This document shows positions 6,236 to 55,941 of a stretch of DNA of 64,000 nt, one piece after another; position 1 is the stretch's first letter, and the number at the start of each line of letters is the position of its first letter. Under the pieces are notes generated by a model that was not told the origin of the DNA, searched no databases, and saw nothing but the letters and a program-made list of their open reading frames with translations. Source of the stretch: Geodermatophilus saharensis (GTDB lineage Bacteria > Actinomycetota > Actinomycetes > Mycobacteriales > Geodermatophilaceae); assembly GCF_900188205.1 (NCBI RefSeq), contig NZ_FZOH01000006.1, positions 62,001 to 126,000 of the forward strand, in the 5' to 3' direction. The position numbers were made by a program, and so were the translations under genes.

Positions 6236-6299
6236 CGGTTCGGCCCCGTCCAGAGGCTCGCCCCGAGCCTGCGAGGGGTGAGGAGGACGGGGTCCTTCG
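6236..6299 (-). repeat. Intergenic hairpin repeat, copy A
   Basis: A hairpin element directly after the hisE stop codon, read on the minus strand. The outer stem is CCCCGTCC/GGACGGGG (plus-strand arms 6244-6251 and 6285-6292). The inner stem is 7 bp with a 3-nt loop (6254-6260 with 6264-6270). It shares layout and flanks (AGGACCCC at the 5' side, GGGGCCG at the 3' side, CACCCCTCGC inside) with copies near 18.9, 19.1, 21.7, 33.9 and 55.4 kb. It could act as a terminator, processing site or stability element between hisE and hisG. Confidence 0.75.
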
Positions 6300-6563
6300 T
6301 CAGAGGTGGGTGTAGACGTCGTCGAGGGTCAGCCCGCGGGCGAGCATGAGGACCTGCACCCGGTAGAGCAGCTGGCTGATCTCCTCCGCGGTCCGCTCGG
6401 GGCCCTCGTGCTCGGCGGCCATCCAGGACTCCGCGGCCTCCTCGACCACCTTCTTGCCGGCGGCGTGCACGCCGTCGCGGACGGCGGTGACGGTGCCCGA
6501 GGCGGGATCGCCCGCGGCGACCTTGGCCGACAGCTCGTCGAAGAGCGCGTCGAAGGTCTTCAC
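6300..6563 (-). CDS. hisE: Phosphoribosyl-ATP diphosphatase
   Basis: An 87-residue stand-alone HisE, the normal actinobacterial length. It hydrolyses phosphoribosyl-ATP to phosphoribosyl-AMP in the second step of histidine synthesis. Seen: the MazG-like helix core with the metal-binding acidic motif [14 protein letters not shown] followed by [14 protein letters not shown]. The GTG start (6563) overlaps the ribH stop, so the gene is translationally coupled to the riboflavin genes. Hairpin copy A begins immediately after its stop. Confidence 0.96.
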
Positions 6564-7102
6564 GCCCGGTTCCCGAGAGCGGGGCCCGGCCCGGACGCCG
6601 GGACGGCCTGGAAGCCGGTGGTGTGCCGCGGCCCGCGGAGGTCGCGGAGGGTGAGCGCGGTGGCCAGCGCGGCGATCGCGGCCTCCCAGCCCTTGTCCTC
6701 GGCCGAGCCGGGCAGGCCCGCACGGTCGCGGGCCTGCTGCTCGGTGTCGCAGGTCAGCACGCCGTTGCCGACCGGCCGGCCGGCGTCGAGGGCGACCCGG
6801 GTCAGGCCCGCGGTGACCGCGTCGCAGACGTACTCGAAGTGCGGCGTGCCCCCGCGGATGACCACCCCGAGGGCGACGACGGCGTCGTGCCGCTCGGCGA
6901 GCGCCTGGGCGACGACGGGCAGCTCCACGGCACCGGGCGCGCGGACGACGGTCGGCTCGGGGACGCCGCTGGCGCGGGCGGCCTCGACGGCGCGGGCGAG
7001 CAGGCTGTCGGTGATCTCGGCGTGCCAGGTGGTGGCGACGATGCCGAGGGAGAGCCCGGCGGCGTCGACCGCCCCCGCCTCGGGCCGGCCCCGACCACTC
7101 AC
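6560..7102 (-). CDS. ribH: 6,7-dimethyl-8-ribityllumazine synthase
   Basis: Lumazine synthase, the penultimate riboflavin step, joining the RibD-branch pyrimidine with the RibB product dihydroxybutanone phosphate. It is 180 residues, about 20 longer than minimal family members. Seen: [11 protein letters not shown] near the N-terminus, the catalytic region [18 protein letters not shown] (essential His in TPHFEYV), and [18 protein letters not shown]. The GTG start overlaps the ribBA stop (GTGA) and its stop overlaps the hisE start. The enzyme usually forms an icosahedral or pentameric cage. Confidence 0.96.
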
Positions 7103-53528: not shown

Positions 53529-55408
53529 CCGCTCACCCGCTCGACCCGCTGACCACCGACGAGTTCCGCGCCGCCGCGGCCGTCCTCCGCCGCGACAAGG
53601 GGGTCGACGAGCGCTGGCGGTTCGCCTCGATCGAGCTCAAGGAGCCGGCCAAGGACGTCGTCCGCGCGTTCACGCCCGGCGACCCGATCCGGCGCGAGGC
53701 CCGCGTCACCGTGTGGAGCCGCGACGAGGGGACGCCGTACAAGGCGGTCGTCTCGCTCACCGACGACGCCGTCGTCTCGTGGGAGACGGTGCCCGGCCAG
53801 CAGGCCAACATGACCCTCGACGAGTGGCACGAGGCGCACGAGGTGCTCATCCGGCACCCCGACGTCGTGGCGGCGCTGGCCAAGCGCGGCATCACCGACC
53901 TCGACCTGGTGCTCATCGACACCTGGGCCTACGGCCACTCGCTCATCCCGCAGGGGCTGCAGGACCGCCGGGTCGGCTGGACCGACGTCTGGCGGCGCTC
54001 CGCCCCCGACGCCAACCCCTACGCCAACCCGGTGATGGGCCTGCACTTCGTCGTCGACCTCAACACGATGGAGCTGCTGCAGATCGAGGACACCCCGCCG
54101 CCGGCGCAGCCCGCCGCCATGGGCGAGTACCTGCCCGCGCTGGTGCCCGGCCTGCAGCAGCGCACCGACGTCCGGCCGCTGGAGATCACCCAGCCCGAGG
54201 GCGTCTCCTTCGAGCTCGACGGCTCCGAGCTGCGCTGGCAGAAGTGGTCGATGCGGCTGGGCTTCAACCACCGCGAGGGCCTGGTGATCCACCGGCTGGC
54301 CTACGACGGGCGCCCGATCGCGCACCGGATGTCCTTCGCCGAGATGGTCGTGCCCTACCGCGACCCCAGCCCCGACCACCACCGGCGCACCGCCTTCGAC
54401 ATCGGCGAGTGGGGCCTGGGCTACATGACCACGTCGCTGAAGCTCGGCTGCGACTGCCTGGGCGAGATCACCTACGTCGACGCCGTCCTCAGCGACAGCC
54501 GCGGCGAGCCGTACACCATCGAGAACGCCATCTGCCTGCACGAGGAGGACGACGGCGTGCTGTGGAAGCACGTCGACGAGCAGGCGGGGTCGGAGGTGCG
54601 CCGTTCCCGGCGGATGGTCGTCTCGTTCCACGCGACGGTGGCCAACTACGAGTACCTGACCTACTGGCGCTTCTACCAGGACGGCACGGTCCAGTGCGAG
54701 GTCCGCGCCACCGGGATCATGGTGACCAGCGCCTACGAGGGCACCGCGCCGGCGTTCGGCACCGTCGTCGACGAGCGCACCTACGCGCCGATCCACCAGC
54801 ACTTCATCGTCGCCCGGCTCGACATGGAGGTCGACGGCCCGGACAACACCGTCGTCGTCACCGAGAGCGAGGCCCTGCCGGTCTCCGACGACAACCCCTA
54901 CGGCCTGGCAGTGGTCACCCGCAGCCGACCGCTGCGATCGGAGGCCGAGGGCCGCGTCGACGTCGACTTCGCGACCCAGCGGTCGGTCAAGGTGGTCAAC
55001 CGCACCCGCCCCAACCGGCTCGGGACGGCGCCGGGCTACAAGCTGTACGCCAACTCGCCGCTGCCGGCCCTCGCCGACCCCGGCGCGCCGTTCCGGCAGC
55101 GCGCCCAGGTCATCGACCACCCGGTGTGGGTCAGCCGGTTCGACGAGGAGGAGCGCTGGCCGGCCGGCGAGTTCTGCAACCAGAGCCGCCGGGACGCCGG
55201 GCTGCCGGTCTGGCAGGAGGCCGACCGCCCGCTGGAGGACACCGACGTCGTGCTGTGGCACGTGTTCGGCATCCACCACGTGCCGCGCCCCGAGGACTGG
55301 CCGGTCATGCCGGTCGACGTGGTGTCCTTCGAGCTCAAGCCGGTCGGGTTCTTCGACCGCAACCCCGCCCTGGACGTGCCGCCCTCGACGGCGCGGCACT
55401 GCCATTGA
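53525..55408 (+). CDS. Copper-containing primary amine oxidase
   Basis: A 627-residue copper/topaquinone oxidase: RCH2NH2 + O2 + H2O gives aldehyde, ammonia and H2O2. The TPQ-forming tyrosine is Y375 in VANYEY. The catalytic base is D292 in AFDIGEWGLG. Copper ligands are H424 and H426 (HQHF) and H585 (GIHHVPRPEDWP). The spacing between these residues matches Arthrobacter amine oxidase. No signal peptide is seen, so it is probably cytoplasmic. It is coupled to agmatinase (ATGA), so putrescine is the likely substrate. Hairpin copy F follows. Confidence 0.96.
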   Translation: MTAHPLDPLTTDEFRAAAAVLRRDKGVDERWRFASIELKEPAKDVVRAFTPGDPIRREARVTVWSRDEGTPYKAVVSLTDDAVVSWETVPGQQANMTLDEWHEAHEVLIRHPDVVAALAKRGITDLDLVLIDTWAYGHSLIPQGLQDRRVGWTDVWRRSAPDANPYANPVMGLHFVVDLNTMELLQIEDTPPPAQPAAMGEYLPALVPGLQQRTDVRPLEITQPEGVSFELDGSELRWQKWSMRLGFNHREGLVIHRLAYDGRPIAHRMSFAEMVVPYRDPSPDHHRRTAFDIGEWGLGYMTTSLKLGCDCLGEITYVDAVLSDSRGEPYTIENAICLHEEDDGVLWKHVDEQAGSEVRRSRRMVVSFHATVANYEYLTYWRFYQDGTVQCEVRATGIMVTSAYEGTAPAFGTVVDERTYAPIHQHFIVARLDMEVDGPDNTVVVTESEALPVSDDNPYGLAVVTRSRPLRSEAEGRVDVDFATQRSVKVVNRTRPNRLGTAPGYKLYANSPLPALADPGAPFRQRAQVIDHPVWVSRFDEEERWPAGEFCNQSRRDAGLPVWQEADRPLEDTDVVLWHVFGIHHVPRPEDWPVMPVDVVSFELKPVGFFDRNPALDVPPSTARHCH

Positions 55409-55941
55409 TGGAGGACCCCCTCCCTCCTCACCGCTCGTCCCTCGTGGCGGGCCCCTGGGAGGGGGCCGTTCCAGGACCTCACCGTCCCCACGGTGGCGGC
55501 GGGCCGCAGCTGCTGGCCGCCACCGCGGCGGGGGTGGCGGCGGCGTCCGCGCTGCTGCACCTGCCGCTGCTGGGGCCCGGCCGGCACGGGGTGCTGTCGC
55601 TGGCCGTCGGCCTGGCCTGCGTGGCGTGCGCGGTGCACCTGTGGCGCCGCCCGGGCCCGGCGGCGTGGTCGGGGCACGTGGCGGCGGCGGCGCTGATGCC
55701 GGCCCACCTCCTGCTCACCCCGGCCGGCCCGGGTCACCACGCCGGGCCGGCGGCCGTTGCGGGCTCGGCGGCGGACGCGGCGGCGTGGGCGCCGTACGCG
55801 CTGCTCCTGCTGGCCGGCCTCGGGGTCGCGCTGGGGCTGGTGCGCTGGGCGGTGGGCGCCGACGTCCCGCTGCGCGCCGGGTCGGCTCAGATGCCGGCGG
55901 CCGTCGGCGGCAGGTCGGGACGGCGGGTGCCCCAGGCGTAG
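55408..55941 (+). CDS. Putative small polytopic membrane protein, start uncertain
   Basis: An open frame of up to 177 residues with four hydrophobic stretches (LLAATAAGVAAASALLHLP, VLSLAVGLACVACAVHLW, HVAAAALMPAHLLLT, YALLLLAGLGVALGLVRW). Histidines lie at several helix ends, and a loop holds AGPGHHAGP. I do not recognise the family. The ATG at 55408 overlaps the amine oxidase stop (TGATG), but the first about 22 codons then translate hairpin copy F; GTG 55444 or 55534 are alternatives. The 3' end overlaps the convergent Lrp gene by 55 bp. A role with the amine oxidase is speculation. Confidence 0.5.
   Translation: MEDPLPPHRSSLVAGPWEGAVPGPHRPHGGGGPQLLAATAAGVAAASALLHLPLLGPGRHGVLSLAVGLACVACAVHLWRRPGPAAWSGHVAAAALMPAHLLLTPAGPGHHAGPAAVAGSAADAAAWAPYALLLLAGLGVALGLVRWAVGADVPLRAGSAQMPAAVGGRSGRRVPQA
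55411..55472 (+). repeat. Intergenic hairpin repeat, copy F
   Basis: Begins 3 bp after the amine oxidase stop. Perfect 9-bp outer stem CCCCCTCCC/GGGAGGGGG (55416-55424 with 55457-55465), inner TCACCGCTCG, and 3' flank GGCCGTTCC. It overlaps the putative 5' end of the next open frame, which argues that frame starts further downstream. Confidence 0.8.

Follow-up and report, generated by a model that had tools for sequence, protein, structure and literature searches.

What kind of element is the short hairpin that recurs between genes along a 64-kb stretch (76% G+C) of the genome of Geodermatophilus saharensis (contig NZ_FZOH01000006.1, positions 62,001 to 126,000; the whole of these 64,000 nucleotides is called the window below)? 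An initial annotation of the letters alone had noted at least six copies, with outer stems that differ from copy to copy and stay paired, and had offered a class of terminators, an RNA-processing or protein-binding element, or a small non-autonomous mobile element that lands behind stop codons. We followed the hairpin through the source genome (4,892,778 bases in 20 contigs) and its relatives. The family does exist, with all six copies confirmed, and is probably a non-autonomous, dispersed DNA hairpin family of Geodermatophilaceae that resembles repetitive extragenic palindromes (REPs).

Size, structure and stop-codon register of the family

A regular-expression scan of the window and two 400-kb stretches returned 66 matches against 24 in the reversed sequence, which served as control. 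With 40 copies picked by hand as the basis of a covariance model, 53 matches (these 40 founders among them) were found in 864 kb of the same genome and 28 in a further 800 kb, so that the six copies of the window belong to a far larger set of 81 in 1.664 Mb. Extrapolation gives roughly 240 copies for the whole genome at an uneven density, copies being sparse in C11:400-800 kb. A strict pattern, AGGACCCC-N30-50-GGGGCCG, matched this genome 82 times against 5 for the reversed control. The covariance model had no match in 39 outgroup loci (742 kb), and no Rfam match reached its gathering score in the window.

The unit, for which copies were trimmed to AGGACC...GGCCG, consists of (C/G)GAAGGACC, a variable self-complementary outer stem, an internal loop, an inner stem, a loop of the form UCGC(2-4 nt)GCUC, the return arms and GGCCG, and is 56-60 nt long plus a tail. 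Two types can be told apart: type 1 returns through GAGCCTC and by eye has no conserved 3' flank, whilst type 2 returns through CCCTG or similar, often with TTCCAGCACGTCACC next, a 15-nt tail that many type-2 copies carry. The tail was recognizable in 39 of the 81 copies (up to 5 of 15 mismatches allowed), and none of the columns behind it reaches 60% for one base. Tailed copies show a TGACG...CGTCA terminal match; its covariation, read by eye, was mixed.

Pairing is clearly maintained. In an alignment of 53 copies, which was fitted to the model structure and thereby favours pairing, 95.5% of cells were standard pairs, compared with 44-56% when the partner was shifted by 1-3 columns; changes on both sides occurred in 12 of the 16 pairs and in 137 cells against a shuffled mean of 40.6, none of 500 shuffles equalling this count, so that the covariation foreseen in the initial annotation is strong and its margin large despite the fitted alignment. 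Among own-genome type-2 copies, the outer stems were on average 0.61 identical and the remaining positions 0.82, and one copy (C10:283407) forms a perfect 21-bp palindrome. The annotation's further step, that the structure is under selection as RNA, was overstated. G.U pairs made up 2.0% (30/1472) of the predicted pairs, compared with 6.4% (645/10143) for 646 strong 3' hairpins found elsewhere in the genome and folded in 45-nt windows, and the modelled pairs of a larger alignment (A3, 133 copies) held 52 A.C cells against 31 G.U cells (binomial p 0.03). The commonest internal mismatch, read along the mRNA, sets A against C and corresponds to G.U on the opposite strand, and in the unmodelled columns 27 and 55 of this alignment A and C likewise predominate in mRNA orientation. 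The scarcity of G.U together with the A.C mismatches is not the pattern expected were the mRNA strand alone relevant, and selection or copying at the DNA level is at least as likely as selection at the RNA level.

Placement relative to genes is equally regular. With a custom gene caller (coding coverage 0.89-0.91), overlap with a called gene never exceeded 15 nt for the 81 copies, 70 of which started within 12 nt past a stop codon in the sense orientation, against 3.7% expected for random placement in intergenic gaps. For the 69 copies with measurable spacing to GGACC (one further near-stop copy has no GGACC and was left out), the start of this motif depends on the stop codon: after TGA (55 copies) it lies at +4 (43), +1 (6), +5 (4), +7 (1) or +10 (1), and after TAG (14 copies) at +5 (7), +2 (5), +4 (1) or +6 (1). 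Stop type and frame are associated with a Fisher p of 8e-10, calculated over copies that are not independent. The bases before GGACC are mostly CGAA, GGAA or CGGA. The same register is repeated in a single-contig genome (G013), of which the first 40 of 100 pattern matches were taken unselected and 33 had the end of a coding open reading frame within 60 nt upstream: after TGA the motif was found at +4 (15), +1 (3) and +5 (2), with six copies at 16-43 nt, after TAG at +2 (3) and +5 (3), and after TAA at +4 (1). At least two of the six far copies are nested (L217, L219), and the dnaA-like gene of this genome carries a copy after its TAG. By hand count, with the origin at dnaA and the terminus at the midpoint, 63 of the 100 matches run along the leading strand, a figure uncorrected for gene orientation on which we base no claim of replication-strand bias.

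The register appears to travel with the element, given that copies in two genomes of other families lie at +1 and +4 after TGA (G082) and at +4 (G092). Two accounts of the register compete: insertion directly behind TGA but one base later for TAG, or an element that starts with G(A/T)CG and uses a host T or TA to re-create the stop codon. Among nine copies that have no called stop and are neither nested nor tandem, six carry G at -6, two of them after an uncalled TAG, which favours rebuilding of the stop; 5 of the 7 copies read as nested are without G at -6, which favours an insertion point behind the stop. A TGA simply carried along as a target motif was rejected on the nested copies, which have no TGA directly before them. 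A mirror-image rule for a convergent gene at the 3' side was also discarded, 37 copies showing no fixed distance.

Distribution and dispersal among relatives

The distribution in Geodermatophilaceae is wide but uneven. The strict pattern was found in all 25 genomes of the genus that were searched, with 6 to 208 matches each (0 to 8 in the reversed control), and 0 to 4 times in 16 other genomes, whilst the covariance model matched 16/16 genus genomes, one of them (G000) with at least 150 scored matches, and 0/9 genomes from other families. Counts near 150 per genome in the genus set are lower bounds, as are counts near 74 in the family-wide set. The search of the wider family matched 66 of the 76 genomes sampled. 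Nine of the ten genomes without a match, small or fragmented, belong to genera g52, g54 and g55, and the tenth (G153, genus g22) had no copy though 100% complete, other sampled members of its genus carrying 26 to at least 74. Genus g21 ranged from 2 to 38 copies per genome, and two further complete relatives were copy-poor (G081 with 2, G164 with 4). A complete genome without copies suggests that the hairpin family is dispensable. Named loci with a copy came from Geodermatophilus, Blastococcus, Modestobacter, Klenkia (a weak match, E 0.001) and Goekera, amounting to 31 of 41 family loci, the membership of which was assigned from titles and similarity.

In an order-wide draw of 121 genomes, the matches listed fell in 17 genomes, 15 of them family members, and the two beyond the family had one or two copies each. 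Copies directly after stop codons were seen in G082, contig C17 (L229, 104-160 and 2603-2657), and in G092, contig C6 (L230, 471-526); both genomes belong to other families of the order, and these copies would reflect either horizontal transfer or misbinned contigs.

Nested copies, inverted copies and copies absent at orthologous sites show that the family has dispersed. In the source genome, an intact copy at C10:109189 is flanked by the host arms CCTCCCTGC/GCAGGGAGG, and nested copies of G013 (L217 and L219) lie between host arms CCCCCTCGC/GCGAGGGGG. In L072, a type-2 copy stands within a type-1 copy. To the eye, the host has lost some of its inner arm in all of these cases, and L187, L201 and L218 look nested as well. 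At the 3' end of the RNA polymerase omega-like gene (rpoZ), upstream of a coaBC-like gene, 27 of the 41 family loci are filled and 14 have no copy; inverted copies occur there in L067, L068, L072 and L091, and some inverted pairs were noted in L067, L072 and L091. The 3' end of the S-adenosylmethionine synthetase gene, filled in the window, is uninterrupted in L063 (TAG CGGGACCGTCG). Remnants with internal deletions (L055, L064) suggest decay. Tandem arrangements were also seen: three identical head-to-tail copies with a 66-nt period run up to the contig end in the last 200 bases of G122:C24 (L231), and the right half of the element is partially tandem-repeated after a full copy in L077 (12567-12720) and L070 (12544-12760).

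Copies and neighbours in the window

All six copies that had been claimed are present, and five of them start 0-3 nt past a called stop in the sense orientation, as had been said; the exception begins at 18908. Perfect outer pairing held for the four stems that had been quoted, whereas the copies at 19055 and 21700 have outer-stem mismatches. A type 1 copy at 6241-6296 (minus strand; outer stem CCCCGTCC/GGACGGGG; 75.7 bits with the covariance model) lies 3 nt past the stop of a gene of the phosphoribosyl-ATP pyrophosphohydrolase (PRA-PH) family (6300-6563, minus strand), and a hisG-like start follows 26 nt further on, making this a short operon gap. The second type 1 copy, 18908-18963 (minus strand; CCCCGCGC/GCGCGGGG; 66.2 bits), has no stop codon directly before it, being 149 nt past the stop of the S-adenosylmethionine synthetase gene and 6 nt upstream of a PriA-like gene (16955-18901, minus strand); at this PriA-upstream site, similar copies occur in L067 and L072 and none in L063 or L079. 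Directly after the stop of the synthetase gene itself (19113-20306, minus strand) stands a type 2 copy with an imperfect outer stem (19055-19112, minus strand; 61.4 bits). The remaining type 2 copies on the plus strand have the outer stems CCCTCTCGC/GCGAGAGGG with the full tail (33914-33969; 60.6 bits), 3 nt past the stop of a BldD-like regulator gene (33368-33910, plus strand), and CCCCCTCCC/GGGAGGGGG with the tail TTCCAGGACCTCACC (55412-55468; 62.4 bits), 3 nt past the stop of a copper amine oxidase gene (53525-55408, plus strand).

The sixth copy, of type 2 with an imperfect outer stem and the tail TTCCAGGCCCTCACG (21700-21757, minus strand; 66.2 bits), lies 1 nt past the TAG of rpoZ (21759-22022, minus strand). 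A separate ordinary hairpin, CCCCGGCACCTGTGCCGGGG (21658-21677, minus strand), stands between it and the coaBC-like gene and is probably an ordinary terminator. In related loci (L053-L091, L095 and L132, at about 9900-10000), the ordinary hairpin before coaBC comes in the stem versions GACGCCCCCGGC, GAGAACGCACCCGGCAG, GAGAAGGCACCCGGC and GAAGTCCCCGGC, which switch even between L072 and L132, 93.6% identical in DNA. Because these versions switch between near species, the terminator-like hairpins before coaBC seem to be exchanged wholesale too. The window's coaBC-like protein shares 93% identity with its G. telluris counterpart, the top match among the best 80 loci, and in the DNA of the same region L063 (G. 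obscurus) is nearest among the 41 family loci (90.1%). A lone tRNA-Arg gene (anticodon gcg) lies at 14592-14684 on the minus strand.

Competing explanations and known systems

If the copies were transcription terminators or mRNA 3'-end hairpins of a class specific to this lineage, held in place by selection and homogenized by gene conversion, this would account for the sense orientation past stop codons, the covarying stems and the enrichment in convergent gaps (30/262 convergent, 47/1041 codirectional and 2/259 divergent gene pairs hold a copy, and 0.3% of overlapping pairs). A convergent gap, however, holds two 3' ends, so that the rate per 3' end is about equal to that in codirectional gaps, at approximately 6% in convergent and non-overlapping codirectional gaps alike. 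With gap length measured without the element and operons judged by gap length alone, codirectional gaps carried a copy in 4.3% (1-30 nt), 10.6% (31-60 nt), 6.6% (61-120 nt), 5.6% (121-250 nt) and 4.9% (>250 nt) of cases; short gaps are not depleted of copies, and no concentration at the ends of transcription units was seen across short and long codirectional and convergent gaps, whereas a terminator should avoid short operon gaps such as that between the PRA-PH and hisG-like genes. There is also no U-tract, as the initial annotation had said, the longest T run in the 15 nt behind the 81 copies being 0 (7), 1 (37) or 2 (37). In E. coli, a Rho-independent terminator is reported to be almost fully repressed when it lies a few bp downstream of a gene (PMC4824070).

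Ordinary hairpins persist beside the element. In the rpoZ-coaBC gap, coaBC is preceded by a distinct, perfectly paired hairpin of 7 bp or more in 22/27 loci with a copy and 13/14 without, and 4 of the 5 copy-bearing loci that do not have a perfect hairpin show by eye one with a mismatch. In a scan for a second strong hairpin (cut-off -22 kcal/mol, stretches below 45 nt scored as none), hairpins below the cut-off were equally common with and without the element where at least 60 nt remained, whilst in gaps with less than 60 nt remaining they were rarer beside a copy than in element-free gaps, both convergent (0.44, n = 18, against 0.92, n = 49) and codirectional (0.06, n = 17, against 0.21, n = 67). 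Because the element is often the only strong hairpin in such tight gaps, it may act as a terminator there. Taken as the main reading, a terminator class is disfavoured by the missing U-tract, the gap rates, the separate rpoZ hairpin and the complete relatives with no or few copies, and it leaves the nesting and the TGA/TAG-dependent spacing unexplained; as a general account we consider it unlikely. Still less probable is a translation-termination or mRNA-stability device that slows the terminating ribosome or blocks 3' exonucleases, its distance from the stop kept by selection. The tight spacing in the source genome and G013 would suit such a device, the rpoZ arms common across genera suggest long retention, and according to PMC12306157 (its reference 17), ribosomes in E. 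coli are stalled by REPs that lie no more than 15 nt from a stop codon. A physical distance, though, would not yield +4/+1 after TGA but +5/+2 after TAG, about 6% of 3' ends bear a copy, and many orthologous 3' ends, such as 14/41 at rpoZ, and some complete relatives have none. We regard as very improbable a functional antisense RNA or bottom-strand element that pairs best opposite the mRNA strand: the excess of A.C over G.U cells, columns 27 and 55 and a mean folding energy of -37.6 against -32.9 kcal/mol point towards it, but without that one column pair the excess is slight, and the copies are not independent.

A non-autonomous mobile element landing behind stop codons thus fits best among the options first offered, given the nesting, the inversions, the missing orthologous copies, the uneven copy number and the stop-specific register, from which its mobility is inferred. 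Several results weigh against this reading. An automatic inverted-repeat screen for nesting was weak (29/180 against a permuted mean of 17.35), so that the claim of nesting rests on the individually read cases. No target-site duplication was seen in the flank columns beyond the tail, empty sites being strongly diverged, and no clean insertion between near-identical genomes was demonstrated. The Y1/RAYT (REP-associated tyrosine) transposase (PF01797), the only mover searched for, was found in 0/76 family and 0/16 genus genomes, and a RAYT-driven REP was rejected on this ground; the same searches did match 5/14 control genomes and, outside the family, G030. No called stop lies within 12 nt of 11 of the 81 own copies, and in G013 the far copies at 26, 26 and 39 nt are out of frame and 7 of the 40 stretches have no nearby coding frame (among them L184, which to the eye is no copy at all). 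At rpoZ, moreover, the arm CCC(C/G)TCG, picked after inspection, occurs in 12 of 20 type-2 copies of different species and in 8 of 64 elsewhere in the source genome, although whole-arm identity at rpoZ is only weakly raised (137/2000 random subsets as high). The arm shared across species suggests that some copies may be very old and retained by selection, with compensatory exchange in place, which speaks against constant replacement.

If the family is mobile, a folded hairpin unit would be moved by a trans-acting enzyme other than RAYT and inserted at the 3' edge of stop codons, also into older copies, and would persist because this site harms neither the gene nor the downstream terminator. 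Lying 4-5 nt past the stop, the hairpin may come into contact with the ribosome at termination and protect the 3' end of the mRNA; where convergent genes leave little room, it may additionally serve as a terminator in both directions. More tentatively, and with some doubt on our part, a non-RAYT mobile hairpin machinery might read the stop codon itself, directly behind TGA and one base later behind TAG, and so tag 3' ends in register across most of the family, the stem staying complementary while it drifts, possibly by the copying of one arm from the other. A REP-like family here would bring such elements into a lineage in which the known transposase was not found and would call for a different disperser. 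The one-base difference between TGA and TAG, repeated at many sites per genome, would make the family a clear-cut example of how an element is positioned with respect to stop codons, and relatives that range from zero to well over a hundred copies make the choice between targeting of 3' ends and tolerance there directly testable. For annotators, such hairpins should not be taken as terminators by default.

Among known systems, intrinsic (Rho-independent) terminators share the strong GC hairpin past the stop codon in the sense orientation; the present family differs in having no U-tract, in its position, for the most part 1-5 nt past the stop and in short codirectional gaps too, and in often coexisting with an ordinary hairpin downstream. 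Miniature inverted-repeat transposable elements (MITEs) are small, non-coding and dispersed and show nested insertions, features that the hairpin family shares, except that the target-site duplication was not seen for it. RAYT/TnpAREP systems offer an enzyme that would account for the dispersal of single hairpins, though PF01797 was not found in the genomes sampled. Among the papers listed in searches of open-licence literature, none describes the family in Geodermatophilaceae; as far as its accessible text goes, a genomic survey of these bacteria mentions palindromes solely as CRISPR (clustered regularly interspaced short palindromic repeats) (PMC9686282). As described in PMC3733652, REPs are short imperfect palindromes of 20-40 bp with more than 100 copies per genome, mostly intergenic and chiefly found where neighbouring genes are unidirectional or convergent; of the convergent REPs of P. 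entomophila and S. wittichii, most lie less than 20 bp from a 3' end, and a TAG stop is often provided by the terminus of a GTAG REP. PMC12306157 cites earlier work that placed 260/496 E. coli REPs in the range of translational control, and among 4,072 predicted REPs it counts 446 itself that lie no more than 15 nt from a stop; the stop-adjacent placement of the present family is tighter (70/81). Compared with REPs and bacterial interspersed mosaic elements (BIMEs), the family also has no GTAG or CGTC 5' tag, is longer and has a variable self-complementary outer stem and a stop-codon-dependent spacing. It resembles them as a short palindrome present in more than 100 intergenic copies in a genome, at the 3' ends of genes and seldom between divergent ones. 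Some inverted pairs and tandem copies might represent BIME-like alternating arrays. Ultimately, since the placement is shared but neither tag nor RAYT was found, we label the family REP-like rather than REP.

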